DNA of 64,000 nucleotides from Vitis vinifera (lineage: Eukaryota > Streptophyta > Magnoliopsida > Vitales > Vitaceae). Under the pieces are notes generated by a model that had not been told where the DNA came from, did not search any database, and saw only the letters and a list, made by a program, of their open reading frames with translations. The translations under genes were made by a program, and so were the position numbers. The stretch is taken from contig NC_081812.1 in assembly GCF_030704535.1 (NCBI RefSeq), positions 21,799,501 through 21,863,500 of the forward strand, given 5' to 3'. This document shows positions 26,139-51,935 of the stretch, piece by piece (position 1 is the stretch's first letter; the number at the start of each line of letters is the position of its first letter).

Positions 26139-26708
26139 TCAGTAATGAAAGACATAAACATTATACTCCACAACAACATCTAGATTGAAGGTGCGAGTCC
26201 TCGCCTGAGCATACCCACGAGCAAATCGGAAAAGCCCACTGCCGCCGACGATCGGCATCTCCCGCACCTTTGAAAAGATAGTGTTTCGGCCCAAAACACT
26301 GAGAGTGCTGCCGTTGTACTTGCCCTCCATGAAAGCAAAATTCAGCACCATCAACAAGCCCATTTCCTCCTGCGACGCCGATGCGTATATTCCTTGGGCT
26401 CTTCCTACCAGCTTGGAGCTGGGCTCGGGTCCCACAGTCAAGGGATCGTCCATCATAAGCACCGCGCCGAACATCGTCGCCGACTTGTTGGTCATGGCGG
26501 CCTCAGCGACTCTCACGGCGGTGGGTTTCGGGCCGCTGATGATGTCGTGGAAGTAGAAGTGAAGGTGGCTGAGCTTCTCTTCCTTGAGGCCCATCGATTC
26601 CGGAGAAAGGTTCCTGGAGAAACGGTGGGATTCCCCGCTGGAGCCGGAGGCCGCGACGGCGGCAATGGTGGAGAAGAAAATAGTGAAAAGGATGAGGAGT
26701 TTTGCCAT
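26139..26708 (-). CDS. Dirigent protein, DIR22-like (complete, 3-residue deletion)
   Basis: A single-exon gene of 189 residues, sister of 13574-14152. It has the same signal peptide, [11 protein letters not shown] motif, [48 protein letters not shown] and VEYNVYVFHY end. By eye the two proteins differ at about five positions, plus a 9-bp in-frame deletion here that removes three residues in the NPKTG loop just before the last strand. The fold should tolerate this because the segment is a surface turn in dirigent structures (inference). Role: secreted guide of phenoxy-radical coupling in the apoplast. Confidence 0.93.
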   Translation of the reverse strand: MAKLLILFTIFFSTIAAVAASGSSGESHRFSRNLSPESMGLKEEKLSHLHFYFHDIISGPKPTAVRVAEAAMTNKSATMFGAVLMMDDPLTVGPEPSSKLVGRAQGIYASASQEEMGLLMVLNFAFMEGKYNGSTLSVLGRNTIFSKVREMPIVGGSGLFRFARGYAQARTRTFNLDVVVEYNVYVFHY

Positions 26709-27664
26709 CGTGGAGAAGAGACAAAGATGGAAAAAGTTTGTGTGTATACTTGCGCAACCATACCTTCTTATAAATGTATGAATGAAGACAAAAATAAAAA
26801 AAATTTAGCACCAAGCCTAATAGTGTCACCGACACTTACGGGTGGTCGAGTTCTCGAGGCTTAGGATGTCGTGGAGTCACTAAGCATCCAGTGCTTGAGG
26901 CCCAAAAACATATAAATTTTAACACATATAATAAATAATAAATCAAGATTATAAAAAATAAAATTATTTGGCTTAGTTAGATATTTGAAAACATGCTATC
27001 CTAAAATCACTACCATTTCCCTACTTGTAATTAGACTCGTAATAATATTTCCTTAACGAGCATATTAGACGTGAAAACTAAGAAGAATCCACTGAAGATC
27101 AAGTTACCAAAAAAAAAAAATGAATATTTAAGATGAAATACATGATTGTATCGAAAGTTATAAATAGTGGAGAAGACCATAATGATATATGAAAACATAT
27201 TTTTTGTATTAGATTTATCTTATCTTTAAAATAAATTGAATTGCTCTTTATATAGCAGTATTCGTTGACTTTCAAATTCAATTTTGATGATGATTGCAAT
27301 GATCATTGCAACTTTTTAACTAAAGTCCAAGTTATAAATTACAAGTCTTGTCAATTGGAACATTCTCGAATATCTCAGTTATTAGGTGTGGATTTTCAAA
27401 GGTACCTATTTGCGTATGGTACCTTGGTGCTATGCTTCTCTTTAAAGGATACTCGGTGGGCAAGTACTTATTTTTGGTACCACCAATATATAAATATTTT
27501 ATAATGATTTTAAAGGTAAAGAAAAATCCTTTTTGTTAATAAGAGATGATCATTGTGTACATAAAGTATCATCATATTAAGACTCAAATCCTCAAGGTTT
27601 GGAGAAGTTTAAGGTTATTGAATTACTTATTATGTATAACATCCAATTCCCAACAAAAGGGTTT
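26709..27664. other. Duplicated spacer, sister of 14153-15141
   Basis: Non-coding. It ends at CAATTCCCAACA just before the third unit marker. Apart from small indels it matches the unit-1 spacer closely, consistent with a fairly recent segmental duplication. Confidence 0.6.
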
Positions 27665-27760: not shown

Positions 27761-28259
27761 TAGAAAAGCAAACTCTATATGTTGGCGTGGGCTTGTTATC
27801 AAGGTATGGTTTTAAATAATATGTATTGAATACAACTTTCAAAAGGTGTTTGGCTTTATTATTAGTAAGTTTGAAGGGATTGAATTGCACAATTTCATGC
27901 GTAATGATGAAATCATACTCTTCAAATTATGTCCAATAATATTCAAGTAATTTTCATGAAAATATAATATAATTATAAACAAATAAAAGTGGAACAATTA
28001 TTTTTTCACCTTTTTTTCGAGCACGTACTATTTGCATATAAATTGTAAAACTATTATAAAAAAAAAATATAATTTTATTTTACATATTTAAATCTTATTT
28101 TTAAAATCTAAAGTAATAATTGTTTTTTATATTTCAAATTTTTAAACAGGCTTTTAAAATAATATTTTTATTACTATTTTCTAATTTTAAAAGCAAAAAT
28201 CAGCAAATATATCCAAACCAAAATTAATTTTTTTCTTAAATTTCTCATAAATAACTATG

Positions 28260-28531: not shown

Positions 28532-28540
28532 TAAACATTA
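28532..28540. repeat. MULE target-site duplication, left
   Basis: TAAACATTA, identical to 46927-46935. On the gene strand it covers codons for Asn-Val-Tyr near the end of the dirigent protein. Confidence 0.95.
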
Positions 28541-28610
28541 GGGAGAATTGTGTTTTGGGCCCAGCTGGGCCCAAAAATTAACAAATGGTCCATCTATGTA
28601 ACAAAATTAA
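28541..28610 (+). repeat. MULE terminal inverted repeat, left (70 bp)
   Basis: Identical, in inverse orientation, to 46857-46926. It includes the palindrome TGGGCCCAGCTGGGCCCA (28555-28578 with flanking T/A runs), which carries TGGGCC 'site II' motifs in both orientations. Beyond position 70 the two ends diverge, with only weak similarity (AAGGCTAT) after an indel. Confidence 0.95.
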
Positions 28611-28771
28611 TAGAAAGGCTATGAGATTTTGAGTGACCTATATACCCTTCTAATTTCCAAGTCAGATTGCTGTAAATTAAAAGGGAGAATTGTGTTAAAT
28701 TTAAAATGCCATGTCACCTTCCCTTCTGTCAGTACTCTCGATGAAACCTCTGAACTGAGCGGAGCTTATCA

Positions 28772-29818
28772 ATGGCGTCCCAAATGGCGATCCTCTCCAG
28801 AGCCCGTAAAACCCTCCTCAAAACCCTAAACCACCACAACAATCCCTTTAAAGCTTCCATTTCCACCTTCACATTCCTCTCCCTGGAAGCCCAACTCGCC
28901 GAGCCCAGCCTTCCCCCGCCATCTCCCACTCCACTTCCTCCCAACCCCGCCTCAGGGAGCCCGCTCTACAAGTATTTTTTATGGATGGATCTTTACTTTA
29001 TTTATATCAGGATGCTGCAGACAGGAAAAGAATCTATGGCTGATGATGAGTCATATGAATTGGTTGTTGGTATGCTGTTTTTGACAGACCAGATTGATGC
29101 TGCCTTGAGATATGTTGATTTGACTTTGAAATCTGGTTATATGTTGTCAATGAGGGTTTTTGCTGAGTGTGTGAGAAGTTGTGTTAACAAAGGCAGGCTG
29201 GATGCTTTGGTGTCTATTATAGAGAGGTGCAAGGTACATGACTAATTAGAATTTTTTTCTAGATCATCTGTGTTAGGAGGAACACTTTCTGGTTATGTTT
29301 CTGTTTCTTATCTCGCTTCTCTGGAGTGTGTACCAGACAATGGATCAAAATAAAGCTCTTTCTCCCTCCTGGAACATGTGCATCTTCATTGCAAATATTG
29401 CGATGCAATAGGATAATAGCAAGTTAGCTTTTTATGCCCTATAATTCATGGCCAGATGGATTGCTCGGGGTGAGAATGCAAGGGGTCATGTTCTACTCTC
29501 TGTGGATGAGGGGCTTGTTGTATCAACACTTGGAACTGCTGGTAGGACTTACAGTTCTACTCTTGTAGATGCATCATGGGCGATCCTACGAGATCATTGC
29601 GTCAAAAGAAGGCACCTCAACTAGAATCTTATCTTGCAAAAATATATGCCGATGCAGCATTGGGGGATTTGCAGAGAGCATTCAGCACTCTGCATAAGTT
29701 TGAAACCGCTTATAGGAACTCCCCCAAAGAAGCAGAAGAGGATATATTCTCACCTTTTACATCTTTACATCCTTTGGTAATGGCAAGCTCCAAGAAGGGT
29801 TTTGAAACTTTGGACACG
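28772..29818 (+). pseudogene. Captured host gene fragment, mitochondrial PPR-like (transduplicate)
   Basis: Three exon-like pieces are visible. The first (28772-28970) starts MASQMAILSRARKTLL, an Arg/Ser-rich presequence, and ends PPNPASGSPLY, where it breaks off. The second (29011-29233) reads SYELVVGMLFLTDQIDAALR and CVNKGRLDALVSIIERCK, ended by a GT donor. The third (29456-29818) reads GHVLLSVDEGLVVSTLG, SYLAKIYADAALGDLQRAF and LHPLVMASSKKGFETLD, with flanking AG/GT. The helical-hairpin character resembles PPR proteins of the Arabidopsis At1g26460 type (from memory, unverified). Exon 3 carries a frameshift near 29583 (WAILR to SLRQKK), so no full product is possible. Its position just inside a MULE end is typical of Pack-MULE gene capture. 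Confidence 0.75.
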
Positions 29819-29860
29819 GTTTGTCTTCTTATCTGTAAAAGTTTCTGTTCTCACAATTCA

Positions 29861-32526
29861 TTTCCTTCTTCTTTTTACTAGAGGGACATCCCTCACATTC
29901 ATTCCTCATTTCCTTTCGTACACATTCAAATGCCTTGTGGTAGCCCACTTATGTTGCATAGGAACCTAAATTAGGTTTCATTTGCACCCTTTTCACTCAG
30001 CCATATCTTTGGAATGTGGTTAACCCGCCCATATGCACTCCTTTAGTTGCATTTATGTGCAATTACTCCAAGTGTACAAGGCCAATGTACTAAATGTACA
30101 AGGGTGTACAAGGGTGTGTACCTTAAGGTAATTCAAGTGATTTTGAAGAACTTAGTCATCAACATTTTCCACTCGTCGTGCACATTCCTAACACATATCG
30201 GTTGACAACACACTCCTTCCACGTATATTATTTGATATCTACCATGTTAGTTCATTGTTTTAGCTCCCCCACATTACTTATGCGTAGGAACCGAAACGAG
30301 GGTTAAGGTTTTCCACCTTTTCCCTCATCCACGAGAATGGGAACATTGTTTCCCCACCCATATGCACTTGTTCGGTCGTCCCTTCGGTGGATTGCATAAC
30401 TGTACAAGTCATTTACACTAACTGTACAACCCAAATGTGCTAACTGTACAAGTGTGTACAACCTTACCTATATTGAAGGATTTCAACTTTTTTTGAAAAC
30501 AATCGTTGCTCATTTCCTTCTTCTTTTTACTAGGGGGACATCCCTCACATTCATTCCTCATTTCCCTTCGTACACATTCAAATGCCTTGTGGTAGCCCAC
30601 TTATGTTGCATAGGAACCTAAATTGGGTTTCATTTTCACCCTTTTCACTCACCCATATCTTTGGAATGTGGTTAACCCGCCCATATGCGCTCCTTTAGTT
30701 GCATTTATGTGCAATTGCTCCAAGTGTACAAGGCCTTTACACCAAGTGTACAAGGCCAATGTACTAAATGTACAAGGGTGTACAAGGGTGTGTACCTTAA
30801 GGTAATTCAAGTGATTTTGAAGAACTTAGTCATCAACATTTTCCACTCGTCGTGCACATTCCTAACACATATCGGTTGACAACACACTCCTTCCACGTAT
30901 ATTATTTGATATCTACCATGTTAGTTCATTGTTTTAGCTCCCCCACATTACTTATGCGTAGGAACCGAAACGAGGGTTAAGGTTTTCCACCTTTTCCCTC
31001 ATCCACTAGAATGGAAACATTGTTTCCCCACCCATATGCACTTGTTCGGTCGTCCCTTCGGTGGATTGCATAACTGTACAAGCCATTTACACTAACTGTA
31101 CAACCCAAATGTGCTAACTGTACAAGTGTGTACAACCTTACCTATATTGAAGGATTTCAACTTTTTTTGAAAACAATCGTTGCTCATTTCCTTCTTCTTT
31201 TTACTAGGGGGACATCCCTCACATTCATTCCTCATTTCCCTTCGTACACATTCAAATGCCTTGTAGTAGCCCACTTATGTTGCATAGGAACCTAAATTGG
31301 GTTTCATTTTCACCCTTTTCACTCACCCATATCTTTGGAATGTGGTTAACCCGCCCATATGCGCTCCTTTAGTTGCATTTATGTGCAATTGCTCCAAGTG
31401 TACAAGGCCTTTACACCAAGTGTACAAGGCCAATGTACTAAATGTACAAGGGTGTACAAGGGTGTGTACCTTAAGGTAATTCAAGTGATTTTGAAGAACT
31501 TAGTCATCAACATTTTCCACTCGTCGTGCACATTCCTAACACATATCGGTTGACAACACACTCCTTCCACGTATATTATTTGATATCTACCATGTTAGTT
31601 CATTGTTTTAGCTCCCCCACATTACTTATGCGTAGGAACCGAAACGAGGGTTAAGGTTTTCCACCTTTTCCCTCATCCACGAGAATGGGAACATTGTTTC
31701 CCCACCCATATGCACTTGTTCGGTCGTCCCTTCGGTGGATTGCATAACTGTACAAGTCATTTACACTAACTGTACAACCCAAATGTGCTAACTGTACAAG
31801 TGTGTACAACCTTACCTATATTGAAGGATTTCAACTTTTTTTGAAAACAATCGTTGCTCATTTCCTTCTTCTTTTTACTAGGGGGACATCCCTCACATTC
31901 ATTCCTCATTTCCCTTCGTACACATTCAAATGCCTTGTGGTAGCCCACTTATGTTGCATAGGAACCTAAATTGGGTTTCATTTTCACCCTTTTCACTCAC
32001 CCATATCTTTGGAATGTGGTTAACCCGCCCATATGCGCTCCTTTAGTTGCATTTATGTGCAATTGCTCCAAGTGTACAAGGCCTTTACACCAAGTGTACA
32101 AGGCCAATGTACTAAATGTACAAGGGTGTACAAGGGTGTGTACCTTAAGGTAATTCAAGTGATTTTGAAGAACTTAGTCATCAACATTTTCCACTCGTCG
32201 TGCACATTCCTAACACATATCGGTTGACAACACACTCCTTCCACGTATATTATTTGATATCTACCATGTTAGTTCATTGTTTTAGCTCCCCCACATTACT
32301 TATGCGTAGGAACCGAAACGAGGGTTAAGGTTTTCCACCTTTTCCCTCATCCACGAGAATGGAAACATTGTTTCCCCACCCATATGCACTTGTTCGGTCG
32401 TTCCTTCGGTGGATTGCATAACTGTACAAGCCATTTACACTAACTGTACAACCCAAATGTGCTAACTGTACAAGTGTGTACAACCCTACCTACATTGAAG
32501 GATTACAACTTTTTTTGAAAAAAATT
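29861..32526. repeat. Tandem array, four nearly identical units of about 674 bp
   Basis: Units start at 29861, 30513, 31187 and 31861, at TTTCCTTCTTCTTTTTACTA. Unit 1 is 652 bp because it lacks one 22-bp piece; units 2 and 3 are 674 bp; unit 4 decays near 32526. Each unit contains two clusters of short TGTACAAG/TGTACAAC motifs. The near identity of the units means very recent expansion or homogenisation. Repeated small reading frames here (60-64 codons) are by-products, not genes. Confidence 0.95.
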
Positions 32527-34270
32527 GTTGATGGTGGTGTTTACTTATTGTTGGTAAGTGTTATGACAAACAATTTCCGTCTCCTTCTATTCGCCTTGTT
32601 ATCTTGGGTAACAACACATAATTTCAATAAGCCAATTTGTTGCCTTTATGAAAAACTCTCATTTGATGTTGATGTGAGGACAAATTTCTTTGAGGTTTCT
32701 AATTCAACAGCTTCATGCAAAATCAGATAGTTAATTCACATTTTATGGCTTTAGAGGTTTATTTTCTCATAATTTTCATCCTTCCAATATTCTTAAATTA
32801 TTAGTATGTTGACTTCTTTTGTTTGTAAGACAGATTTATGACTCTGCATCAATGGAAAATTATGTGCACAGTATTGAGTGACGGATAATAGGAGAACTTA
32901 AACGAGTACATGACCGTGTCAAATTGCATCTTTTCATGTTCGTTTTTAGATGAAGCAAATAAATGATCTTTTATCCTTGAACTAATTGTTTTTCCCTTTA
33001 TGTGTGCAGGTGGGTAGATTCTTGAAGTGGGAGCTTTGTCACGATTAATACAAATACTTCAAAATAAGAGGCTTAACATCATATGAAAGATGAGAAGAGA
33101 ACAAACAGAGAAGTGTAGATGATCAAGATAGTTTATTTTATAGGAAGCCAATCTATGTTAAGAGTTGGATAATAAGATACCAACCTTCTTTTAAGTTTTT
33201 ACATTGTAACTATTTTCATCAAATAGTATCATATACGTTTCGGGACATGTAATTATGCATTTCATTCCAATTAAAATTCCAATGTATTGAACTTAAATTT
33301 TGGTTATTTTGCAGTTTATCAGCACATGTTTCTTGTTTTTAAATTTTGTTTTCCCTCCGTTTATATTGGTTGTTGGACAAATAATGTCTCATTCTCATTT
33401 CATGTCGTTCTCCAAGTTTGCTGAAGAATTTCTTTACTTGCTGATTTTGAAGAACTTACTCATTTACTTTTTCCAATATTCAGGGACATTCCTCACACAT
33501 ATTACTTGAATGGTGCCTCATTGCACGTATTTTATGTGATGGCTACCATGTTAATTAATTTTATTAGCTCCCATACTAATGATGCATATGAAGCAAAACG
33601 AGGATTAGCTTTTTCATCCTTTTCCCTTATCCATGAGAGTGGAAGCATTGTTTTCCCACCCATATGCACTTGTTTGGTCGTCCCTATTATGGATTTCTCC
33701 AACTGTACAAGGCATTTACACTAAGTGTACAAGGCCAATGTGCTAACTGTACAAGGGTGTACAAGGCTACCTAACTTAAGGGTTTTCAAACGAATTTCGA
33801 AAAATTCTTTGCTCATTTATTTTTTCAATATTCTTTCAAACCTCCCTCCTTCCTATATTCATCCTCCTTACTTTCGAGTGACATAGTATCTTCTAAATGC
33901 CTTGATTTATGTAAGTGTTGTATGTGTGCATAATGTTTTTTGAATTATTACCATTACTTAAGTCTTGACATAATGGACATGTTGATCTATTAGTTATTGT
34001 ATTTAGAATCTTGAAATTTTATCCGAATGCATTATATAACTGGATATAATTGGAAGGACCCCTTCCATATATGGTTGCATAATTGAAGTAACCCCTAGCC
34101 CTAGCCTTTATGTGAGGGCAGTGATAACTTTCGAATGGTGCCTTCCATTATCCCCTTCACCAGCCCTGTCTCAGGCCCTTCGGACATGGATTGAAGGCAA
34201 ATCAAATTGAAAACTTACAAAGCGATGTCATTTCAATATGCATGATTTCTAGTTTATAATTTAACCCCAT
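32527..34270. other. MULE interior, non-coding, with an ancestral copy of the 674-bp unit
   Basis: No confident gene is seen. Positions about 33420-33790 hold a single diverged copy of the 674-bp unit, recognisable by CCCACCCATATGCACTTGTT and by CTGTACAAGGCATTTACACT. Its divergence marks it as the older form from which the array may have grown. Confidence 0.6.
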
Positions 34271-34346
34271 TTAATGCAAAACCACAGTCATACACTGTTG
34301 ACTCCCCAAGAGGCAAGGACCTACTTGAGAGATAATGAGTCGGCCA

Positions 34347-34403
34347 CCTCGACCGGTACACGATCGGTACACGACCGGGAAAGTGTAACCGGTCGACCGG
34401 TGA
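34347..34403. repeat. ACCGGTCGA-rich short tract
   Basis: Contains CTCGACCGGTACACG, GTACACGACCGGG and AACCGGTCGACCGGTG. Similar tracts occur at 4065-4350 (in a solo LTR) and 37715-38172. The tracts on either side of the ORF at 34807-36261 suggest these are parts of one nested element. Confidence 0.6.
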
Positions 34404-34806
34404 CCTACCTGGACGCCCTGTCGCACACACCCTCGCCTGTAACAGCCGATCAGATGGATCAGGCGAAAGATGGAGGTTGTACTATATCATACAAAAATTT
34501 TTTGCACCCACATAATTTTTTGACATACTTAATGTTTTGATTTTGGAAACAAATAGTTAAAAAAATTGCACTTGGGCCCATTAAAATGATAATCATTAAA
34601 AGTAAACGTATAATTCACATAAGACAAAAGAAATCATATATATATATAGTCAGCTGAAATATAGAGGAAACATAGACATATATATACATAAACATAGACA
34701 TATATATATATAGTCAAGTGAAATATAGAGTAAACAAAGACAACAGACACAAAGATGGCAATGATTTGCATGTACTTATGCTAATCCTATATAGCTATCG
34801 CTGCTA

Positions 34807-36261
34807 TCACGACTTAGGAGGTGGTGGTGGAAACACGGATCGGATGTAAGCCATCATGTCCTCATGCTGACTGTCCTGGCGATCAAGCCTCTGGAGGATA
34901 TGCGCAAAGGTAGCCTGCTGCTGATCCATGCGATCCTCAATACTCTGAAATCTCTGCTGCATAGACTGGAATTGCTCGGTGAAGCCTGTCTGATAATGAT
35001 CCATGCGATCCTCCATAGAGTGGAATCGCATATCCTTGACAATTGCTAGCTCCTCAATCCGAGCGCCCAGTGAGCTGATCTGAGCACCTAAATCAATCCA
35101 AGCCTGACTAGGTCCGTATGGAGCTTTATGAGGTGATGTTTGCGCCAGAGGTGGATCAGTGAATGATGGCTGCGAAGATGTTCCGGCTGTGTGCATTGCC
35201 TCAAATGTCATCCCCCCTGATACCGTCGACCGCAACTGGCAGCCCTCGGACTGCTGTGCAGGTATTTCAACCTCAGTCTGTGTATGCTCATAATCTCTCT
35301 GAGGGGCAACCCCACCCTCCATCTCCCCAATCTCCGCCTCCTCCTCAACGGCAGGCTGTGGTACTGGTCGCTCCACTTTCCTAATCCATGCTCCTTCAGG
35401 CCCCTTCTCAAACTTCATACGGGCCAACGATTGCTCATCATATGTGTCATAACTACTTGGGGCCTCAAAGTCCTGCTCCTTGCTCAAATCAACCCCCGCA
35501 TCCTTGAATACTCGTGTCAGAAAACGGCCATAGGGGAGAACACGTGTGGAGCTCTCGCAGCATGCAAGCATGTGCATCATCATCACATATCCAACGTCAA
35601 TCCGTCTCCCCCTCATAATCGAATCAATGATAAATGCCTCCAGATATGATACCTCATCTCGGTGGCCGCCTCGTGGCAAGAGAATGTATAGGATCATGTG
35701 GTGAAGGATGCGAGATCTAACTGTCAGGCTATGTGCTGATGGTTTGCCCATCCCCCGTGCATCAGCAAGGCCGCACATCCTCTGTATCGCCTCTGTAGGC
35801 TCGAAACCCGCCACAGTGGGCCAACCCTTAGACTCATATACCCTGAGTCCGACTGGAGCGATGTCTAAAATGCGGCATATGCTCTCCGGGTCAAGCTTGA
35901 TCTGCACACCTCTAACGGTCGAAACAATCGGCCCTCCGTGTCCATATGTCACTCGTGAATAGAATGCCCTCACTAATGTCGGAAATATCGGCTCGGAAAT
36001 AGTGACTAATGGCAGCCACCCCATACGTGCGAATAGTCCCTCAAAGTCGAAATGCTGTAGTTGGGAGAAATTAATATTTCTCCCTGGAACAACCTTCCTG
36101 TGGGAAAACTTCTGCTTGTACCTTTGATATTCCTCCATTGAAGTGAAAAGACCGGTGTCAAACCTTGCCTTTCGGCGGGCCTCCGCCTCACCGGGCTGAG
36201 ATGGCTCAGCAGGGCGCTTGCCCTGTGCCCTAGAGGCAGCCGTATCTCTCCTAGGCGGCAT
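34807..36261 (-). CDS. Putative plant transposon protein (PF20167-like), 484 residues
   Basis: An open frame starting MPPRRDTAASRAQGKRPAEP, a basic, proline-rich N-terminus. A globular region at about 45-290 includes FEGLFARMGWLPLV, FYSRVTYGHGGPIVSTVRG, LDPESICRILDIAPVG and MMMHMLACCES. That pattern matches what I recall of the plant-specific 'putative plant transposon protein' family. The C-terminal third has an acidic linker and then a coiled-coil-like stretch with the repeats MEDRMDHYQTGF and IEDRMDQQQATF. The biochemical role is unknown. The frame is uninterrupted and the GC content is higher than the surroundings, so it looks whole. It may belong to a retroelement-type or other element nested in the MULE. 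Confidence 0.6.
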   Translation of the reverse strand: MPPRRDTAASRAQGKRPAEPSQPGEAEARRKARFDTGLFTSMEEYQRYKQKFSHRKVVPGRNINFSQLQHFDFEGLFARMGWLPLVTISEPIFPTLVRAFYSRVTYGHGGPIVSTVRGVQIKLDPESICRILDIAPVGLRVYESKGWPTVAGFEPTEAIQRMCGLADARGMGKPSAHSLTVRSRILHHMILYILLPRGGHRDEVSYLEAFIIDSIMRGRRIDVGYVMMMHMLACCESSTRVLPYGRFLTRVFKDAGVDLSKEQDFEAPSSYDTYDEQSLARMKFEKGPEGAWIRKVERPVPQPAVEEEAEIGEMEGGVAPQRDYEHTQTEVEIPAQQSEGCQLRSTVSGGMTFEAMHTAGTSSQPSFTDPPLAQTSPHKAPYGPSQAWIDLGAQISSLGARIEELAIVKDMRFHSMEDRMDHYQTGFTEQFQSMQQRFQSIEDRMDQQQATFAHILQRLDRQDSQHEDMMAYIRSVFPPPPPKS

Positions 36262-36758
36262 GAGAGAGTGAAACTGAATGGGACGACGGTGGTAGAGAAA
36301 TAGAGGAGCAGCTCAAAGTGATAACAAACCGAAGCAAAGGAGATTGGCGCGCTGGAACAGGTGAGAAACCGCCTTTGACGCGCGCTGATCAAGGACCCCT
36401 TCCAATACACACGGCCGACCTCCCAAATATCATTCCACACCCTTCAAAACCCACTCCGAAGCCATGAAATAGCTGCAATGCCGTTCAAAGTAGGTTTCCC
36501 ACCAAGCTGAATACCCAAAACCCTTGAAGGCTGACAATGTCAAAATGCCGCACGGGGGGTATTTCAAAAGACAACCCCACGAATGCCTCGCTCGCTCCAC
36601 TCGCGGTTGACCCCCTCTGTAAGTAAGAAGCCGAACAGTCGCTTTGGCTTGGAAAGTGTTAGAGTTGCTTTGACTCTTACAATTCCGAGACTCTATAACA
36701 ATGATATGAAATTGAATTTTCATTTATAATTGATTTAAATTGAATACCTATGACTGCA

Positions 36759-36761
<3 letters not shown>
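36262..36761 (-). other. Leader region upstream of the PF20167-like ORF
   Basis: About 450 bp of GC-richer DNA precedes the ORF and then changes abruptly to AT-rich sequence near 36720. The alternative frames across it overlap the ORF start and are not separate genes. Confidence 0.4.

Positions 36762-36846
<85 letters not shown>
36762..36846. repeat. (TA)n microsatellite, about 85 bp
   Basis: Uninterrupted dinucleotide repeat. A shorter one is at about 37210-37252. Confidence 0.97.
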
Positions 36847-36848
<2 letters not shown>

Positions 36849-37714
36849 TGATAATTTAAATTTATAAATAAATAATTAAATAATTTAAGGAAATTTCATA
36901 TTGAGATATAAAGTTTTCTTAAATTGTTGGAATAGTAGAAGATAATTACATTTTGTAAATTAAACTAGATAAAATAAAAAATTATTGGAAATTTGTTTTT
37001 ATTTTTTTATTCTTTTGGGGTTGGCTTAATGTTTATTTTCTATTTTAAATCTTATTATTGAATATAATAATATTGATTTAATGGATATTTTGTTTTTATT
37101 CTTAAAAAATAACATTTACGACTCCTAAATTTTTAAAAGTAATTAACATGTTACAAACTAAATTGTAAATAACCATTTTAGGATCTTAGACTAACTTAAT
37201 ATTTAGTTTTTAATCAATTACAAAATATGATATATATATATATATATATATATTTTGTGTACAATTTATCTACATACCCTTTTTTTTTTCATGAAATTTC
37301 GGGATAAAATGACATATTTTGACATTTGGAGATGGTAAATTATTGATATTGTTAAAGTAAAACTTAAAGGTTTAAATCCAAATATAATTGAATAGATTTT
37401 ATTATTTTAAAAAATATACATGAAATAAAATAAAAGTGTTTCATAAATTTTGCTAAATATATAAAGTCTATTTGGTAACTATTTTCAAAAACAATTACGA
37501 GAAATTACTTTTGAAAACTAATCTAAGATGTTTTGTAAAACAAGGTCAATTTAAGAACCAAAAATATTTTTAATATTTTTAAATATGATTTAAAAATAAT
37601 TTGTATGTTTAATGTTTTATTTTTAAAAATAGCTAACCTTTTTTCTCTAGCTATTATATGTTTTATCAATAATTACAGACAAAACATCAATTTTTTCATA
37701 GCAAAAACAATGTC
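36847..37714. other. AT-rich MULE interior
   Basis: No gene or clear repeat is seen except a TA run near 37212-37252. Confidence 0.5.
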
Positions 37715-38172
37715 AACATATGTTCGACCGGTCGAAGACATGCGCGATATGTGAAACGACCGGTCGACCGGCCATCTTCAACCGGTCGACCCCCGGTCGC
37801 AAGACAACATTTCATTTTCTCTCTCTCCCAGTAGCTGTGTGTGACCGGTTGAGTAATCATATCGTCCGGTCGATTTGAGGTCGATCATAGGTCGAGGTAC
37901 CGGTCGAGTGCAGTTTCGACACTCTCTCTCTCCCAGTGGCTGGTTGGTACCGTGGTCAACCGGTCGATATCCGGTCGAATACCGGTCGGAACTATTTTTT
38001 ACATTCTCTCTCTCCCAGTGGCTGTATGTGACCGGTTGAGGATGGTGGCTTCCCGGTCGTGTGTACACCATTGACCGGTCGTTACCCGGTCGAATACTTG
38101 TCGAGGGTTTAGTAACCGGTCGACCGGATTTGTTTCCCCAGTCGTAAACCCAGTCGATACCCGACCGCGACA
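37715..38172. repeat. ACCGGTCGA-rich irregular tandem repeat
   Basis: The motif CTCTCTCTCCCAGTGGCTG recurs three times, spaced about 80-110 bp. Between the copies lie many ACCGGTCGA / CCGGTCGAATACC units. A 131-codon minus-strand frame through it is repeat-derived (GRPVTKPSTS-like) and not a credible gene. Confidence 0.7.
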
Positions 38173-38429
38173 ACTGTTATCTTCTTTTTTTTCAAAATGT
38201 TTTGTATGAAATTTTTCTTGCTGACGTAGTACCCCTCATACAGTGTGTCCTCCAAATGCAAGTTATCAAAGTGAAAATACTTATGTAAGATAGATGGATA
38301 ATTTGTTTTTTATTTGTCAAATAGATAAGCCATAATATTCGCAATACATTGTCATGTGTATGTACTTTTTCCTGTATAATGTACAATCAGCTTTAAAAAT
38401 CCTCGTCACATCCTATTGAAAAGTGTATC

Positions 38430-41400
38430 TCAAACTGCCATGAATCGATGCCGATGCGCATTATGTGATGAAAGCAATAATCTGCCCAGTAGCTTCAATC
38501 TATACTTCTTCATCTTGGCCTGCACTCATTCATGTTTAAAAGACATATAAGGAAAGGTTAAATAAGTTGCCTATGCTATGCAATTTTTATATAAATGATG
38601 GCATAGTGAAAGCCTATATGTACATACCACATCGATCGATTTGGAGAGTCCCCCATTGGACCAGTTGTCCATGAATTTCATAATAAAAACGCCGCAGTCA
38701 TTGCTAACAGAAAGAGTAATTTGTAAGAACTTAAAAAGCGTGAAATGGGGAGTATAAAATTTGGAAAATGCTATGAAATCAAATTAAACTTAATTGTGGT
38801 AAACACTAACTCATTTGGTTGGCATGGTACGTCTGGCATGACAAAACTGTACATGTTCAAGTCTACAGCAACCATTTCTTTCTTGTCGGCAACAAGCATT
38901 AGAACAACTTTGGCCTTAAAGAAGCAAAGTAATTGACATTCAAACTTACAGTATGTTGTACAATGCAACTAATATTAGGGGAGTGGAAGGAACCTTACCA
39001 ATTTTTGTTGTATTCCAGTCATACAACTCCTTTTTCGTCCAGGCCGAGAATCCAGGAGCTGGATTCGCTTATTATGCAAGTCATAGACATAAAGTGTCCA
39101 ATGGTTTTTAAAAAGGACCGGTAAGTAGACCTTCATGATGCCACATACAATGGATTAGCAAATATAATGGGTCAAGGAGATCAGATGATGCCACATAAAA
39201 CATTGGAATGCAAGTCTGACCTGAGTAACATGCTGATACGAACCATCAAAGGCATACATATATGGATCAAAACGCGCAACAATTGCATCGTGCGTCAAAT
39301 ATTTTGCATTGGAACGAATCACCATGTCCTGTATATCAAATGAACGTAGTTAATGCATGGAAACATGTGCAAACGTGTGGACATGTTATCATAACAAGGG
39401 AAATTCAGATGTAGGGGCCATTAAAAGCATTCGTTACAGCTATGTATGGGGAGAGAAATAGTTTTGTCCTTGATTCATCATCGAATTGCAACATTCGGCA
39501 AAATGCATCCACGACCTAAAAGAAGAAATGATTAAAATGTAATCGATATTCAGATTGACTAATGAGATGTTACATCACATTAAAATTAAAAATAATGCAA
39601 ACTAGTGGAAAAATTGAAATATTAACATCATTGCCAATCCAAGAGTCTCCCTGGAAAGACGCGAGGTTGCCTCTGGTTAAACTTGTGTCGTGCATGGAAA
39701 CAAACTCTTCGCTGCCAACAAAACCATATATGTTAGGGTAATACGATTTGTTGCATGTGGAAACACTTGAAATTGGAGTAGTATATGATATAACATGCCT
39801 GGGGTCCAACTCCCCATCAAATACAGTTGCAGCTGCCGCTTTTAGGTCCATCTTTATGGCAGAATGTCGCGTTTGTGCCTGCGCTATGAATGGTGACAAT
39901 ACACTGGGAGCCATCCGACGGACTCTCCGTTGCCTCCCAATGCTATGGGATCGGGCCACAGTCATAGAACGCAAAGGTAAGGGGTCAAGGACGACAACTT
40001 CGTCATCAGCTGTTTGTTTGGAGTATCAACAGATTAGTTAACTGAACCCCAATACAATTTGACATATTTTCTACCACTAATGCAGTAATGAATGTGGCCA
40101 AAATGTTACCAATAATAGGTGGATGGCGAATAGGAGTGTCCGGTACTTGTTCGGTGGAATGGGTTGGCATGTCATATCGGGCAGCGGATGAATCAGGCTC
40201 GGCATCAGGAAACTCATCCGCTGCATAGCCCGAGTGAGCAGCAGTAGGTGAATGTACACTTCTTTTTCTTCGACCATCCAATCTTTGGATCAGACCACGC
40301 ATGATGCCAAGCTGGTGCTGAATGCCTTTTTGATAAGAATTTATTTGGCGTTCAGCTGCGTAGTACTTATCCAAGATTTCCTGTCACATGAGAACGAATT
40401 GGCATAGGCAAATTTAATTTCAAACTACTTAAAAGAAAATTGGTTAGAAGTTATTAACAATATAGCGATGATAACCAAATTGTTATGTGATTCAGATGGA
40501 CTCAATGCATAAAGTAACAAGTAGTTTTAGCATACATTACTACTTGTCGGTCCACTGTCATCCTCGACATGTGTACGGGGCGGTGACGATTCAGCAAACG
40601 CCTGCATTATGAGAACATCAGGCATGTTAAGAACATAGAAACATTGGAGGTATTCACATTGCATGTAAATCAATATATAACAAACTTCATGCCGAATCAA
40701 TGACTACCTCGCCATGTCCAAAACTCCCAAACTCACTTATCTCAGCAGATAAGCGCTCCTTTATCAACTCATCTGACCATGCTGAGAGTAGGGGCGCTGT
40801 CATCGGAACATGAACGGAAGGAATTTTGAATTTCATTACGTAATGGAGCTGCACAATGGAAATAAAGATATGTATAATTCTTACTTGTTGGTACTGATGT
40901 TAAAAAAGTCAAAGTTACCAATTAATGAATGTTAAAGCAGGCCAATACCTGGAGGAAAATAATGCAACCATGAACCCAGACGCTGTTCCCTTGCTTAAAT
41001 CGTCTTATACCCTCCACAAGCTGGTCAACAACAAATTGGCCCCAATTAACATCATTTCTGAAACCATCTTCATGGATGGTATGCCACAAGTTTCGGCATC
41101 CATCAATCCTTGAGGTGGGGGCTAATAGCGTCGCACAAGCGTAGTAAATGAAGCATCTACGGAACTCCTCCCCAATTGGTAAGTTGAGGAGTCTCTCCTC
41201 ACATGTGTTGAGGGTACCGAATGGATGATCAGACGGGGTAGTAGCAATATCTAGAATCCGGCCAGTCGTCGGGAGGCCAAAGACAAGGCCGACATCAGCA
41301 GCTGTCAGATCATACCTTATGTGGGATGTAATCTCAATGCGTTTGTACCCAACATTAAAATGGGCAATCAGCCATGTACAGAGATTATGCCGGATCTCCT

Positions 41401-41530
41401 TGCAATTTAAGTGAAGAAGACCTCCAAATTGAAGGTCTCGAACCACGTCCAATTTCTCAGGAGGGAGCCTGTTGCATAGTTTTAGAAACCGAGAAGATGA
41501 ACAACGTGTGTATAATCTGGTGGACTGCAT
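38430..41530 (-). CDS. ULP1-type cysteine protease of a Kaonashi-like MULE
   Basis: About eleven exons can be followed on the minus strand with GT-AG borders: 41530-40949, 40848-40708, 40601-40536, 40380-40110, 40009-39627, 39515-39438, 39328-39221, 39130-38999, 38914-38811, 38703-38628 and 38519-38430. The N-terminus (RFLKLCNRLPPEKL, DLQFGGLLHLNCKEIRHNLC, VGLVFGLPTTG) is the domain usual in plant ULP-containing transposon proteins. The C-terminus is a C48 peptidase: WIGND/VVDAFCRMLQF, KNHWTLYVYD (catalytic His), the Asp in IQLLDSRPG, the oxyanion Gln in PCQPN, and NDCGVFIMKFMD (catalytic Cys). All catalytic positions are kept. The family cleaves SUMO or SUMO-like conjugates; its use to the element is unknown. 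The true start may lie upstream, because 41525 is also a plausible splice acceptor. Confidence 0.88.
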
Positions 41531-42611
41531 TGAAATGGTTGGAGGTCATTAGTAGTTTACAAATGAATTTTATATATGAAAAAATTAACATCAATAGGAA
41601 TACGTAAGCGTTGTGAATAAAGCAATAAAATTGAATGAACAAACAAACATATTCATGTGGGATCATAATTTACGATTGGATGTTTATGTTATTCAATCTT
41701 TAACATCAAAAACAACTATAGGTCGTAAGTTGGGAAAAATATGAAGTATCCGAAATAACTTATCAATATTTAAAAAGAAGAAAGAATGCATCACCTCCGT
41801 AGTGGCCATAGAAGAATGAAATGATTGTTGTAAGATTCAACCTTGGAAGAACGGGCACCTGGAAATGCATGTTATAGCAGTTAATGATGACGTGGAGGAA
41901 CTAATAATAAAGGGAAAGGTCAATTGACTATTTGGACAATTAATCTTTTTGATTAATTTGGTAATGGTGTTCCATAATCATAGTTGTAAGGGAAAAATAA
42001 ATGAAATACATAACAATATGACATTTTACGAAAACGCGTAGAGTTTGGAAGGAAACACGTGTATGATCGATTATCCAACCAGCAACCAGATAAATTACTA
42101 GATAATAACCATATGGACAACGTGTGTAACAAGTATATCTAATTGAGGACAAATTGAAAGACAATTTTTATGACGTCTTAGAAATTGATGGCACATTAAA
42201 ATAGGTGCAAGCAGAAGATAATGTGATAAGAGGACTAATTCACAACTTGGAAATAAATAAAGGGGTAGTCTCGCTTTATTGAAAAAATAAATTTTGTCAC
42301 CCCAATACGTAAAATAATGTAACAGAAATTGTCATCCTTAATGAGGCTCCAAATAATAAATGCTCGATAATGTAGAGACAGAGATGGAATTAAATAACAA
42401 CTAAAAAGAAACCACATTCAAAGTGCACTTTCAATTAAGTTGGTTATTGAAAGCAACTCTAAATAAGAAAAATTCCAAAATAGTGCATCGTGCCTATAAA
42501 TAGGGCAATACAGAACAACGAGAGTCAACAACCCCATACCATATACCATACAACAGCATGTATGGAATGATACAAAATGAGGAAATTGTACAACCAAATA
42601 AAATGCAAATG
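41531..42611. other. Spacer between MULE transposase and ULP1 genes
   Basis: About 1.1 kb. It may hold additional 5' exons of the protease gene: a GT donor follows TGGCCACTACGGAG near 41800, on the minus strand. Otherwise I see no feature. Confidence 0.4.
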
Positions 42612-44943
42612 TCACGGCAATGGATTATTACATTTAGAGCGGTTGTGACCTATTCCATTGCATCGAGAGCAATGAATTGCTCTCTTATGACAAAACTGTG
42701 ATTCAATGCGCAATCGTCGGGGTCTTCCTGGAGGGCGTCTCACATGAGGGGGTTGGCAAGCAGGAAAGGAGTTGCCCGCGCAATCTATAACATATCCTCG
42801 ATCGTCACAAAGTTTCGGCATATTGTGTGTTGGTAATGGTTGAAACTGACCCGAGTAAATCAAATCTTGCATGGAGACATGAAAACATGGGTCAATATAG
42901 TCATACACGTCGTGTCTCAGTGTGCGGATGACAGCACATACGTGTGCACATGGCAAACCGGACATTTGCCATGTCATGCAAGTACACGTCCGTTGATTCA
43001 TATCGACAACCAAATAAACTTCTCCAGTAAACACCTTAAACGTCCCTCCCAAATAGGGTAGCACACTAATCGGACCAGACCTCATGATATTTGACATTAA
43101 CTTCTCTTCAGTTTTCGGTCCAACCACGCTCTTCCACTTTTGTGTATCACGCATATGGCTGTCCAACATGGCTACAAGTTTATCCATGTGCATTAACAAT
43201 AAAGTATAAATTGTTTGGTGACGCTCTTCTCTTAACCACGCATTGAACGCCTCTGCAATGTTAGTTGTCATTTTGTCCCAGCGCTTTTTAAGAAACTTTG
43301 ACATTGCCCAATGTTCGGGATTGTTTTCCGCAACCCATTTTGCTAGGTTCTCATTGAAGCGCACAAGTTTTTCAAATGCCTCATTGTAGTCTATTTCCAA
43401 CCTAGCATACGCAATGCTGTCCAAAAGTAGCAAAGCATCTTCTTTTCCTTTCTTTCCTCGAATCGTTTGCTTATTGAAGAAGCTAGAAAAGTTTTCCTTC
43501 ACATGTCGATAACAATACGCATGATTTCCTGTCCCAAACAACTCGGAAACACTACGCAAGATTCCCTGATGTCTATCTGATATAATAACAACTTCTTTAC
43601 CATCTAATACCCCCTTTAATTTATCCAAAAACCAATACCAGTCCTCATAATTTTCTGAACTTACCACACCAAGGGCCAGAGGGAACATTCCATCATCTGC
43701 ATCATATGCAATGGCAGACAAAAGAGCTCCCTTATATGGACCGCTTAGGTGGCACGAATCAATAGCCAATACAGGTCGACACCCCATGATGAACCCTTGA
43801 ATTGAAAATGCATGGGCAATGAACAATTGCATGAAGTGACCTTCTTGGGAAGTGTACTCCGCAATTGTGCCCGGGTTTATTTCTCTTAGCCTATGGCATA
43901 ACCAAGGGAGAAACGTGTAAGAGTCGCGTGGTACTCCATATATGCGCTCTTTTGCCTTCTCTTTAAGGTGCCATGCTTGGTTATATGTCAATTGAACCCC
44001 ATGATCACGTTCAAAATCCTTACAGATTTGACGAGGAAGATAGTCTGGAGTGGTTCTAAACACATCTTCAACAACAACCGCACCTCTCTTTGAAGAAACC
44101 TTCACCTTAGATGAACACTCATCCTGAGCTATATGTTTATGATTCACTTGGTAAGTATGAACTCGCAAGATGACATTTCCCTCGACAGCGTGAGCTGTTA
44201 TCTTCCAAGGACAACCATCAACCGAACACTTGACAGACATATGCGTAGGGGAATTTTTCGTGTACTTGTATTCAAACCTTCCACCTAATGACATCTGGTA
44301 AATTGCATTGCGAAACTCCTCGGCATTTTTAAATGTATGTCCCGACCCTAATATTGCCTCACGAAAACGAATCGATTCCAAAGGGATGTACTCAGTATCT
44401 GCAGCACGCGACGCAAAACCTCTTGATAGCATCATAGTGTTACGAATTGGATCGCATGATGCATTAGAGGACGGGAACGTGATAGGTGGATCTCTGCATT
44501 GACATATATTAACATAATTAGACTACGTGATGTGTAAAATTGATATTCACAATTTTTTAAATAAACATTGATGTTAAAGTCCATTACCGAAATGCCAACT
44601 GTGAATTCGGGATATTTGCTTCAATGGCTTCCACAGAGGGTAAGTCTACTAGGTATACATTTGCAAAGTCATCACTATGGGAAACCACGTTATCCAAATC
44701 ATCCTCATCTTCTAAATCTTGGATGACTCTGGGATTGAACTTCAACGTGTAGTGCATCTTCATCACGTCAAGGGAAATGTCAAATTTCTCCATGATTTTT
44801 TTGGTGAAATCTTCAAATGCCATTCCTTTATATATGTGAATACCTTTGCTTCTTCCACCCAAGTATTCCCATTGCCCATCATTTTTTTGGACAAGTTTGC
44901 CACCCACAAAAATGTAACAATATATCCTATTAGTTGCGTCCAT
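42612..44943 (-). CDS. MuDR-type MULE transposase, two exons, 745 residues, complete
   Basis: Exon 1 (44943-44588) starts MDATNRIYCYIFVGG and carries a PB1-like N-terminal domain with an acidic DLEDEDDLDNV stretch. Exon 2 (44493-42612) joins in frame across a short GT-AG intron (TTTCG/GTAATG to GCAG/AGATCC). Then come a MuDR DNA-binding region (FKNAEEFRNAIYQMSL, CSVDGCPWKITA) and the DDE core, with Asp in VLAIDSCHL, Asp in VVIISDRHQG and Glu in NIAEAFNAW. A SWIM zinc finger (RTCTCMTWQMSGLPCAHVCA), a basic GRPRRLRI patch and a CCHC knuckle (CSRCNGIGHNRSKC) follow. No stop or frameshift interrupts it. It would cut and join the element ends in the nucleus. It lies nearest the right terminal repeat and in the same direction as the protease gene. 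Confidence 0.95.
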
Positions 44944-46856
44944 TAACCTATACAAACATAGCACAAATATCATATTATAGATCAAACAATTATGCATATT
45001 ATAGAAAATGGCCTTCATATTTTCTCTCATTTGGCCTTTTGCTTTCAAGTTCAGACTATTACTAGTCGTCATGTCCAGATTATCACGCATCATTTATGCA
45101 TATACTTTTCCAAATGTTACTTCACTTATTCTATTTTTCACTGGTTGGTCGACTCTTCCTCTGTTTTTTGCAGATTGCTATGACCCTCTAGATCCCAATA
45201 GGAACATCACAATTACTTTTCAGACTTATAAATGGACACATCATGCCAATGTCATTAGTGTTTTGGCTCATACTCAATAGACAACTTCAAATTTAACTTA
45301 ATTTCAATTTGCTTCAATTGTATGCTGAAAATAATATTGCATTTGCTGCATTTGATATTTAGCAATTGTGAATAGTAAACATGGAAAGAGGTATTTGGCC
45401 ACTACAATGATTGTTGGAAACCATTCTGGATTTCAACGAGAAATCCCTTAATTGGTTTCTTATGTATTGACTCCCTTAATATTGGATTTCAAAAATAGAA
45501 TTAAGACTCATTAAACTGCCTTTGAACTGATCTGTTTCTTTATTTCGCATTTATATTCATGTTAGCTACAGATTTCATGAAGTTCGAAATGATAATCTAT
45601 CTACACATACTAGGTATCCCACAATATCTCATACTAGAGGGTTCAAAGAACTTGGGTTTTTTTCGAAAATAGGTAACAGGCGAACTAGCGAACTCAACTA
45701 GATTGCCGCACGAGGAAGTAAATATAATGCTCAATGATATAATTTGAACGAAAGGACAAAAAATATGTTTGCAAAAGAGAATCTATTTGCATTTACTTAT
45801 GATATATTAGAATAAAATTGCACCTATCAAACTAACTTTTCAATTCAATATGCAATGCTAAACCAAACAAACATAACTGAACCAAGTAAAATGCATGGAA
45901 AATCAAAATATATTTTTATGTCATCTTCAGCATCACAATTATCATGAATGGCAATCGAGGGTTCTCATATTCATGGACAAACAAGTGAATCATGGTGACA
46001 TCACAGTTTAATAAAAAGAAGTGATTTTTCCATGTCAAGGCTATCAATCATGTAAATCGAACACAAACATAATTATCTAAATAATAACTTTTTTCATACC
46101 ACAACATGCATATGCAATTAGCCCATGCGGATCCTCACTATTTCAAACTGTGAGCCATGTCTTAAAAAGACCATAACCCACGCCATGTCTTAGAGCCAGT
46201 TACGGGGTTTAAGCTTTAATCTTAAAATAAAATACTACTTTACCTGATGGTCAGAGAAGCTCCCTCCTCAATGCTCAGCACGGGACGACACCCACGGTGG
46301 GGATTAATGGCACACTGAAATCGCCAGATAAATTTGGGCAATGTATTTGGGCTGAAATGAATTGGTCGGGATAGCCGAAATGAAGCATAAACTGAAATTG
46401 TTGAACCTACTAACCTCAACTCTCAACTACTTCGCCACGGAACCCAAATCCGGTGGTGATCGTCGACAACAATGGATTCACAGAGGTGAAAAACTCCACC
46501 GTCTACACCTAAAATCGGATGGCCGGGAAACTCCACATGAAGATAGGATTAGGGCATTCTTTGGGCGGAAACGAGGGAACACTCAGGAATGTGAAAACGC
46601 CTCTCAATTTTGGGGAAAACGAACTGGAAATCCAACGTCGATTTTGTTTTTAATCGGATGGTCGGCAAACTCCAGATGAAGAGAGGATTAGGGCATTCTT
46701 TGGGCGGGAACCAGGCAAACACTCAGGAATGTGAAAACGCCTATCCAACGTGGATTTTGTTTTTTTTTTTTCATTAGCCAGCCAAAGGGCATTTTCGGCA
46801 TATTATAAATTGTATAGCCTTCTTATCAATTTTGAGACTTTGACTGGGTGTTGGGC
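44944..46856 (-). promoter_or_regulatory. Upstream region of the MULE transposase
   Basis: About 1.9 kb between the transposase start and the right terminal repeat. No credible gene is seen. The 105-codon plus-strand frame at 46362-46679 lies across a tandem repeat and is likely spurious. This is the expected place of the transposase promoter and 5' untranslated exon(s), but I could not place a start site. Confidence 0.4.
46513..46745. repeat. Subterminal tandem duplication, period about 139 bp
   Basis: The string ATCGGATGGYCGGSAAACTC, then GGATTAGGGCATTCTTTGGG and CACTCAGGAATGTGAAAACG, occurs at 46514 and again at 46653. It sits just inside the right end of the MULE, where MULEs often have subterminal repeats. 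Confidence 0.8.
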
Positions 46857-46926
46857 TTAATTTTGTTACATAGATGGACCATTTGTTAATTTTTGGGCCC
46901 AGCTGGGCCCAAAACACAATTCTCCC
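46857..46926 (-). repeat. MULE terminal inverted repeat, right (70 bp)
   Basis: Inverted partner of 28541-28610. It lies upstream of the minus-strand transposase, so it probably holds or borders that gene's promoter. The terminal base also completes a stop codon for the interrupted dirigent gene. Confidence 0.95.
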
Positions 46927-47492
46927 TAAACATTATACTCCACAACTGCATTTCCTGATTTGACGTTGAAGCTGTGAGTCCTCGCCTCAACATACCCACG
47001 TGCAAATCGGAAAAGCCCACTCCCGCCGATGATCGGCATCTCCCGCACCTCCGAGAAGATGGTGTTTCGTCCCAAAACACTGAGAGTACTGCCGTTATAC
47101 TTGCCCTCCATGAAAGCAAAATTCATCACCATCAACAAGCCCACTTCCTCCTGCCACGCCGACGCATATATTCCTTGAGCTCTTCCTACCAGCTTGGAGC
47201 TGGGTTCGGGTCCCACAGTCAAAGGATCGTCCATCACAAACACGTCGCCGAACGTCGTCACCAACGTGTTGCTCATGGTGGCCTCAGCGACCCTCACGGT
47301 GGTGGGGTTAGGGTCGGTGACGATGTCGTGGAAGTAGAAGTGGAGGTGACTGAGCTTCTCGTGCTTGAGGCCAATCGATTTGGGAGAAAGGTTTCTGGAA
47401 AAACGGTGGGATTCCCCGCTGGCGCCGGAGGCCGCGGCGTCTGCGGCGATGGTGGAGAGGAATATAGTGAAAAGGATGAGGGATCTAGCCAT
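46926..47492 (-). CDS. Dirigent protein, 3' end cut off by the MULE (188 residues)
   Basis: The gene starts [19 protein letters not shown] (signal peptide) and keeps [51 protein letters not shown] and [20 protein letters not shown]. It ends VVEYNV and then a stop. Intact sisters continue with YAFHY or YVFHY. The stop codon TAG is formed by two bases of the target duplication plus the outermost base of the MULE, so only the last five residues are lost. That final strand is conserved in all complete copies here, so reduced stability is possible. Its polyadenylation signals are displaced 18 kb. An upstream in-frame ATG at 47576 exists, but the signal peptide favours 47492. Confidence 0.9.
46927..46935. 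repeat. MULE target-site duplication, right
   Basis: TAAACATTA, identical to 28532-28540. Confidence 0.95.
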
Positions 47493-47559
47493 AGTGGAGA
47501 AGAAACGAAGGTGGAAAAAGCTGAATAGCATCATCGACTTCTCGGCTGATCGGGTTCTC

Positions 47560-47705
47560 ATGCCAGATGATGTCATGCATGCATGGAAGTAGAACCGGAG
47601 GTGGCTGATCTTCTAGCGCTTGAGGCCGTGAGATTCCCCACCACCGCACACGCGGATGATGCTGAAGAAGATGAGAGTTTCAGCCACAGTGGATAAGAAT
47701 TAGAG
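47560..47705 (-). pseudogene. Dirigent gene scrap (N-terminal half)
   Basis: The minus strand contains remnants of the [11 protein letters not shown]-coding stretch (GGAAGTAGAACCGGAGGTGG, GATCTTCTAGCGCTTGAGG) and of the signal-peptide stretch (GATGAGAGTTTCAGCCACAG), with deletions between them. Confidence 0.65.
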
Positions 47706-48150: not shown

Positions 48151-49268
48151 AGAAGGGTGTGAAGGCTTTGCATGAGAAATGGAATATGCCCAGCTACGCC
48201 TTTATATTAGTGGGGTTCCGGTACGTGGAAGCCTTCAATGTGGTGATAGTGAAAAAGCACAATGCAGATCGATTCTTACATGAAAAGAAAAAAAGCGACA
48301 GTGTCCTTTTCAGTCTGGAAAATATATTTCTTGATAATATATGATAAATAAAAATATTTTTCCTTTTTCTCAATAACGGGTTACCCTTGTTAGCTTTTTT
48401 TTCCACCATATATAATTATATTTATATGAATATTATTTAAGGGTATCAATTGATAGGTAGGTGAATCAATTGATTGAGCATCCAAGAGTCTTATGTATGA
48501 AAAACTCAAATTACAAATGGGGAATTAAAAAATTTAATCCATATGAATGTGGTGTTACAATTTTTGTAACCTTATCTTTATGAAATTTATTTGTACAATA
48601 TTATGTTTATAAGTAATAGAAGAAAATGAAAAGGTATATAACCTATGCAATTATATGGATGTATTCAAGTTCATAACCCATCATTACTCATTAATTTGTA
48701 CATAATGGATGTAAATAATAAGTATAACTCTCATATAGTCTTTGATGGAAAGATTAAAAGATATACAATTTATTATAAATTGAGGTCTCAAGCCACACTC
48801 TCATTTTTATGTCTTTTTCTTTCTTGTTGTTTATTGTTATTTATTTTTTAACAACATATACCACACAAGTGATTCATCCACTATATGAGAATAGTGAGTC
48901 GAAGACCTTGACAATACAATTCACACGGAGACTCGATTTCACTTCATAAATCAATGTAAGAATATGATCATTTTTTTAGTACTTCCATTTTTTTTGTTTT
49001 ATATATCCAAAATTGTTTTAAAAAATAATTATTTCCACATCAAGTTTACGAAAGTTTAGTTAACAACCCTGGCTTGGAAATATAAATTCATAAGTAATGT
49101 TACTGCAAATAAATAAAAACCAACCAGTCATACATAAATTGAAATGTTCCATTCAGCCAACGAGAACAAATACATAAATAAAAGCCTGTAGCTCCTCTGT
49201 GACAGAAAAATCAAACGTCACCCTCTCATTCGGTGGCGGAGCCACGCAGTGCCCAGAAGTCAGCGAGA
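48151..49268. other. AT-rich spacer between dirigent copies
   Basis: No credible gene. The last 150 bp (from about 49120) is the 3' flank typical of the dirigent copies here (CATTCAGCCA, CTCCTCTGTGACAGA). Confidence 0.6.
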
Positions 49269-51735: not shown

Positions 51736-51935
51736 TAACTACGAACACTCTTAAAAGATATAAATCACAAATAAATTAGATGAATTGAAAATTTCCGTTC
51801 AGCCATCAAGCACAATACGTAAAGAGAAGACTGGAGCTCCTCTGTGACAGAGAAGTCAACATCACCCTCTCATCATCAGAAGCATTATTGGAGAGAAATG
51901 AAAGCAAATAGCCAACATAGAGTTAGAGAGAGAAA

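Follow-up and report, generated by a model that had tools for sequence, protein, structure and literature searches.

An 18.4-kb MuDR-type MULE, complete at both ends and with an open transposase gene, in the tail of a grapevine dirigent gene

The 64-kb stretch of grapevine DNA analyzed here (hereafter, the window) contains a MULE of 18,386 bp at positions 28541-46926. It interrupts the final codons of a dirigent gene read on the minus strand. The following features were identified in the element and at its borders.

28532-28540: left TSD, TAAACATTA
28541-28610, plus strand: left 70-bp TIR, a perfect match to the right TIR
28683-28696, plus strand: exact repeat of the 14-bp TIR tip, lying 142 bp in from the left end
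28772-29818, plus strand: degraded host-like gene fragment, seen in the ORFs; its ATG at 28772 falls ~160 bp inward of the left TIR
29858-32530: tandem array of four units (652, 674, 674 and 673 bp)
30073-33765: cluster of the motifs TGTACAAG and CTTGTACA, outside any identified gene
34349-38127: patches of the motif CCGGTCGA (34.35-34.40 and 37.72-38.13 kb), outside ORFs
34807-36261, minus strand: embedded cargo, an open ORF of 484 aa with a match to Transposase_32 (PF20167; Pfam, 1.1e-23)
38628-39130, minus strand: catalytic core of a ULP1/C48 protease, in exons 39130-38999, 38914-38811 and 38703-38628 with GT-AG junctions
40708-41530, minus strand: exons 41530-40949 and 40848-40708, probably the N-terminal part of this protease gene
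42612-44943, minus strand: MuDR-type transposase of 745 aa, in exons 44943-44588 and 44493-42612, identified with Pfam
46857-46926, minus strand: right 70-bp TIR
46927-46935: right TSD, TAAACATTA
46926-47576, minus strand: dirigent gene struck by the insertion, identified with Pfam and by comparison of the joined flanks

The two TIRs are exactly 70 bp long and 100% identical, and all nine bases of the TSD are the same on both flanks. With simple repeats excluded, the TIR pair is the longest perfect inverted repeat of the 64-kb window; its arms reach 73 bp if three flanking bases are counted, and the runner-up has 38 bp. The left TIR holds a 16-bp palindrome (GGGCCCAGCTGGGCCC). Inward of the 70 bp, the left and right ends of the element match in patches only. 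The host gene (Pfam Dirigent, 2.7e-59) now stops after ...VEYNV and lacks five residues, YALHY; the TA of its present TAG stop comes from the TSD, and the G is the first one of the TIR. When the element was removed in silico, joining the flanks with a single TSD, the dirigent frame ended in VEYNVYALHY. This restored end resembles those of three paralogues in the window (13574-14152 and 26139-26708, ending in ...VYVFHY; 51936-52502, ending in ...VYAFHY). The comparison of the joined flanks with the rest of the window gave 13 BLAST pieces, five of which span the junction: 13574-14180 (88%), 26139-26736 (87%), 51832-52434 (86%), 49171-49700 (78%) and 5224-5344 (77%). The first three are the best, and they reach into the left flank by only 25 bases for 13574-14180 and 26139-26736 and by 133 bases for 51832-52434. 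Such alignments across the junction to other dirigent loci give independent support for the insertion. The initial annotation had called the boundaries of the element certain, and the identical TIRs, the perfect TSD and the paralogue-backed reading frame of the empty site bear this out.

The dirigent ORF at 46926-47576 is in itself a natural C-terminal truncation allele, with a stop shared by the TSD and the TIR. The window holds a dirigent cluster with open and apparently partial copies (5224-5344, 9483-9962, 13574-14152, 23113-23455, 26139-26708, 49171-49700, 51936-52502). The region of this cluster also contains larger duplicated segments, e.g., 104-403, 15247-15546 and 27770-28069, and a 132-bp tandem repeat at 6641-7072 and 20729-21292. 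Toward the end of the window, a short stretch noticed in a translated minus-strand frame (63178-63231) presumably resembles an endonuclease/exonuclease/phosphatase (CCR4-like); Pfam at 0.001 gave nothing in two of the three minus-strand frames of 53-64 kb.

The transposase reads through 745 codons without a stop once a 94-bp GT-AG intron (44587-44494) is removed. Four Pfam families match above their cut-offs, namely MULE (2.3e-15), DBD_Tnp_Mut (3.2e-13), Transposase_mut (3.6e-8) and SWIM (1.1e-7), and a fifth match, to a zinc finger (0.029), falls under its cut-off. By eye, we picked out the DDE residues and, at the C-terminus, a zinc-knuckle-like motif (CX2CX4HX4C), following the usual definitions of these two motifs. 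The uninterrupted transposase proposed earlier for this element is thus confirmed at the same coordinates, as a gene with one intron. The element has the features of the MuDR type: TIRs, a TSD of 9 bp (8-11 bp in the type, usually 9), and a transposase with a DNA-binding domain, a DDE core and a SWIM finger. Hence, the MuDR-type MULE insertion at 28541-46926 is real; both of its ends are complete and its transposase is open. A sequence search of PDB with the transposase gave no match up to E = 1, and a structure prediction from the single sequence was uninformative (mean pLDDT of 36.3). Among viral contigs, five stretches fitted a pattern for relatives of the transposase and none was confirmed, and a 23-mer of the TIR occurred in neither the viral nor the genome contigs. 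Since both collections are not from plants, these null results say little.

The protease gene lies on the same strand as the transposase. Spliced in frame, its three core exons encode 104 aa with a match to Peptidase_C48 (Pfam, 3e-12), and the joined core matches SENP2 in PDB (1.4e-5, the best of 18 matches listed). The His, Asp and Cys at the expected positions of the catalytic triad all align with SENP2. In the unspliced region, four single ORFs gave no Pfam match of any kind, and three read-through frames gave none to C48. For the probable N-terminal exons, Pfam gave nothing up to E = 10. The accessory protease described as intact-looking at 38430-41530 is therefore real, with a C48 core and its triad, but it is split into exons rather than being one ORF, and the word intact applies to the catalytic core only. 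A domain shared between the protease N-terminus and the PF20167 ORF was also considered and rejected, as BLASTP found nothing (best E of 1.4).

Much of the 18.4 kb is cargo, which comprises a putative Athila-type ORF, the tandem array, a probable gene fragment and minisatellite patches. PF20167 has also been reported from an Athila LTR retrotransposon of sunflower, where it lies in an ORF of 487 aa (PMC11728184), and the ORF at 34807-36261 would, by its predicted domain, be an accessory ORF of the type found in Athila-type LTR retrotransposons. Read-through Pfam scans, which in the minus frames of 42.0-44.9 kb covered only the transposase and upstream ORFs, found no gag, protease or polymerase of a retrotransposon. 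Their other matches (EzrA, ATG17_like, DUF6526, Androglobin_II and OTU) were weak and under the cut-off. There is no LTR-like pair in a self-comparison of the sequence, and no nested perfect TIR of at least 11 bp with a TSD of 8-10 bp, except for offsets inside the outer TIRs. Apart from these, only two internal inverted repeats reach 14 bp: one pairs the second TIR tip with the right end, and the other is of 16 bp, at 33815/42292. Nested elements were thus rejected as the cause of the size within the reach of these searches, outside of which fall truncated elements and those with TSDs of 2-5 bp. Over the whole window, there was no Rfam match at the gathering score and no tRNA.

The degraded fragment at 28772-29818 may derive from a mitochondrial PPR gene (At1g26460-like); Pfam gave no match to it, and PDB none of any meaning. 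In the tandem array, the last three units differ pairwise at 4, 7 and 9 bases, with at most one gap, and since they are ~98.5-99.4% alike, the array was recently amplified or homogenized. The extra 14-bp TIR tip has no counterpart at the right end. The search for the tip gave three matches, all exact; with up to two mismatches allowed, shuffled sequences gave 0.66 matches on average, and at least three in 4 out of 100. An unpaired second tip implies some rearrangement of the left end, and the tip is perhaps a trace of end rearrangement or of gene capture. The element also has a 94-bp direct duplication (90%) near its right end, at 46513-46605 and 46652-46745, and a perfect (AT)42 microsatellite (36762-36846) adjoining an AT-rich block of 600 bp with 17.7% G+C, at 36.9-37.5 kb.

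We made a rough estimate of the age of the insertion with a neutral model that assumes no selection since, using assumed values for the substitution rate (2.5e-9 to 6.5e-9 per site and year) and the indel-to-substitution ratio (0.05-0.15). The survival of a neutral 745-codon ORF drops to 5% at 1.4-6.4 My. Two identical 70-bp repeats reach the same point 3.3-8.6 My after they were last made alike, and a perfect TSD only at 26-67 My. Because the ORF decays sooner than the TSD, it is the best argument for a fairly recent last transposition, which on this rough estimate occurred a few My ago or less. The statement that the element looks young is hence plausible from the open ORFs, but supported only in part. 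The other two arguments carry little of it: a perfect TSD is compatible with tens of My and adds almost nothing, and for an element that moves by cut-and-paste, identical TIRs give no date of insertion.

Large MULEs have been on record in grapevine for years. Table 4 of Benjak et al. 2008 (PMC2528002) has 18 Mutavine families. Among them, Mutavine-1, which is Mudravi1 in Repbase, has 17.7 kb and a 70-bp TIR, and Mutavine-18 has 16.2 kb. In the same source, Mutavine-1 has 43 copies with >90% transposase, 12 whose ORFs are potentially functional and 38 that are deleted, as well as 5 ESTs, and it is named with Mutavine-17 as a possible exception to the loss of mobility. That source gives no TSD for Mutavine-1, and the TSDs that it reports for grapevine MULEs are always of 9 bp. 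ULP1 sequences are reported there for several MULE families of grapevine, some having TIRs and some not, and in either orientation; the ULP-1 marks of Table 4 are only on families other than Mutavine-1, and in the main text we found no statement that Mutavine-1 carries ULP1. In a later phylogeny of MULEs, MUDRAVI1 falls in the MUDR clade, with an inconsistent wording of the group number (PMC6446971). More broadly, MULEs with ULP1 have been found in Arabidopsis, melon, rice and grapevine. According to a review, the first Pack-MULEs to be reported were all of 7 kb or less, and transposition falls above ~6 kb of cargo (PMC6431247). The element had been ranked among the largest coherent MULEs. It is indeed large for the superfamily, but not exceptional, since Mutavine-1 and Mutavine-18 have been described since 2008.

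We propose that the element is a structurally complete, potentially autonomous MuDR-type MULE that would have moved by cut-and-paste into the last dirigent codons. Once bound to the 70-bp TIRs, the 745-aa DDE transposase would release the element and reinsert it by a 9-bp staggered cut, while the ULP1-type protease gene and the picked-up DNA would travel along and bring the whole to 18.4 kb. In this scheme, we infer the autonomy of the element, the TIR binding and the role of the protease.

As for its family, the element is probably a copy of Mutavine-1/Mudravi1, a comparison made on the lengths of the TIRs and of the elements and not on their letters. It resembles this family in its 70-bp TIR, its size of ~18 kb and its MuDR-like transposase, and in the existence of copies with potentially functional ORFs. 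Among the 18 families, only Mutavine-1 has a 70-bp TIR, and its element is also the longest of those with a stated length (none is stated for Mutavine-15). At 18.39 kb, the copy is ~0.69 kb longer than the 17.7 kb of Mutavine-1, an excess that is suggestively close to one 674-bp unit of the array. Element lengths and TIR sizes alone can nevertheless coincide, in which case this would be an intact MuDR-type MULE of another, possibly undescribed family from another plant. We think this possible but rather unlikely, because an unusual length and an exact TIR length both fit one known family.

Either of these readings is compatible with a composite origin, where the ends and genes of a MULE surround unrelated nested insertions and never moved as an 18.4-kb unit. 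The embedded Athila-type ORF, the AT-rich block, the second TIR tip and the 16-bp inverted pair would fit such a history. Yet there are no LTR-like pairs, internal TIRs with TSDs or gag/pol genes in the searches described above, and 17.7 kb is already the recorded length of Mutavine-1; we consider the composite unlikely. The near-identical 674-bp tandem array could be mis-sized in the assembly, but that unrelated MULE halves were artificially joined is extremely improbable, as matching TSDs and a paralogue-backed dirigent frame are hard to get by a random join and the window has no N. The copy is therefore real but ordinary, probably a member of a known family, in a plant where large MULEs, and MULEs with ULP1, were already known. 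Its value is mainly that of a clean example, with exact ends, an open transposase and a dirigent allele trimmed by five residues.

The noncoding part of the element is rich in short motifs. TGTACAAG occurs 27 times in the element, always within 30073-33765, and once elsewhere in the window, and CCGGTCGA occurs 15 times versus 3 in the rest of the window. In 100 first-order Markov controls, the former had a mean of 0.66 (maximum 4) and the latter of 0.17 (maximum 2). Both motifs were picked after looking at the sequence, and part of the TGTACAAG count is due to tandem duplication. In Arabidopsis, VANC proteins read short motifs tandemly repeated in noncoding VANDAL DNA, and VANC6 uses AGTTGTAC (PMC5735166). 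The KIU, which are ULP1-carrying VANC genes, act similarly according to a review (PMC13317346). Among the VANC motifs, the four YAGTATTAY forms are each absent from the element and AGTTGTCC occurs once; the exact AC-type motif of VANC6 is absent from the window. The TTGTAC core occurs 44 times in the element and 15 times outside. Given that the known VANC motifs are nearly absent from the element, the resemblance to VANC6 is limited to this core.

By analogy, the ULP1-type protein might bind the noncoding arrays of its own element (TGTACAAG in the 674-bp repeats and/or CCGGTCGA) and strip DNA methylation, forming an anti-silencing module. The loss of methylation would keep the transposase gene expressed, and this would explain the intact large members. 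We regard this as a long shot: the perfect TIRs, the lack of a recognizable N-terminal family and the lack of an exact AC-type VANC6 motif count against it. If it were true, a MULE with TIRs that is not one of the Arabidopsis VANDALs would have a self-contained anti-silencing module. If the arrays were targets of the element's own protease-type protein, sequence-specific anti-silencing would reach beyond the VANDALs of Arabidopsis and include TIR-MULEs in other plants, and the repeated occurrence of ULP1 domains in plant transposons would have an explanation.

The element thus shares traits with several known systems. Like Kaonashi (KIU), it is a MULE with a ULP1-type accessory gene, where the C48 match and the aligned His, Asp and Cys correspond to the ULP1 domain of Kaonashi/VANC-type MULEs. 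Like the VANDAL-VANC system, it has noncoding tandem arrays of short motifs, one of which shares TTGTAC with AGTTGTAC. However, Kaonashi and VANDAL elements are described as non-TIR, whereas the grapevine element has perfect TIRs, and its N-terminal protease exons, in contrast to Kaonashi/VANC, match no Pfam family. In KI-MULEs, the ULP gene is described as opposite to the transposase, whereas here both genes are on one strand. The picked-up gene pieces recall Pack-MULEs, in which the 5' end of the gene fragment tends to lie next to the TIR, as it does here. Unlike the transposase-less Pack-MULEs, the element has kept its own open transposase of 745 aa. Finally, MULEs with additional TIRs likewise have an additional TIR tip inside one end, but there the whole TIR is repeated and here 14 bp of it (Ferguson and Jiang 2012, PMC3310237).
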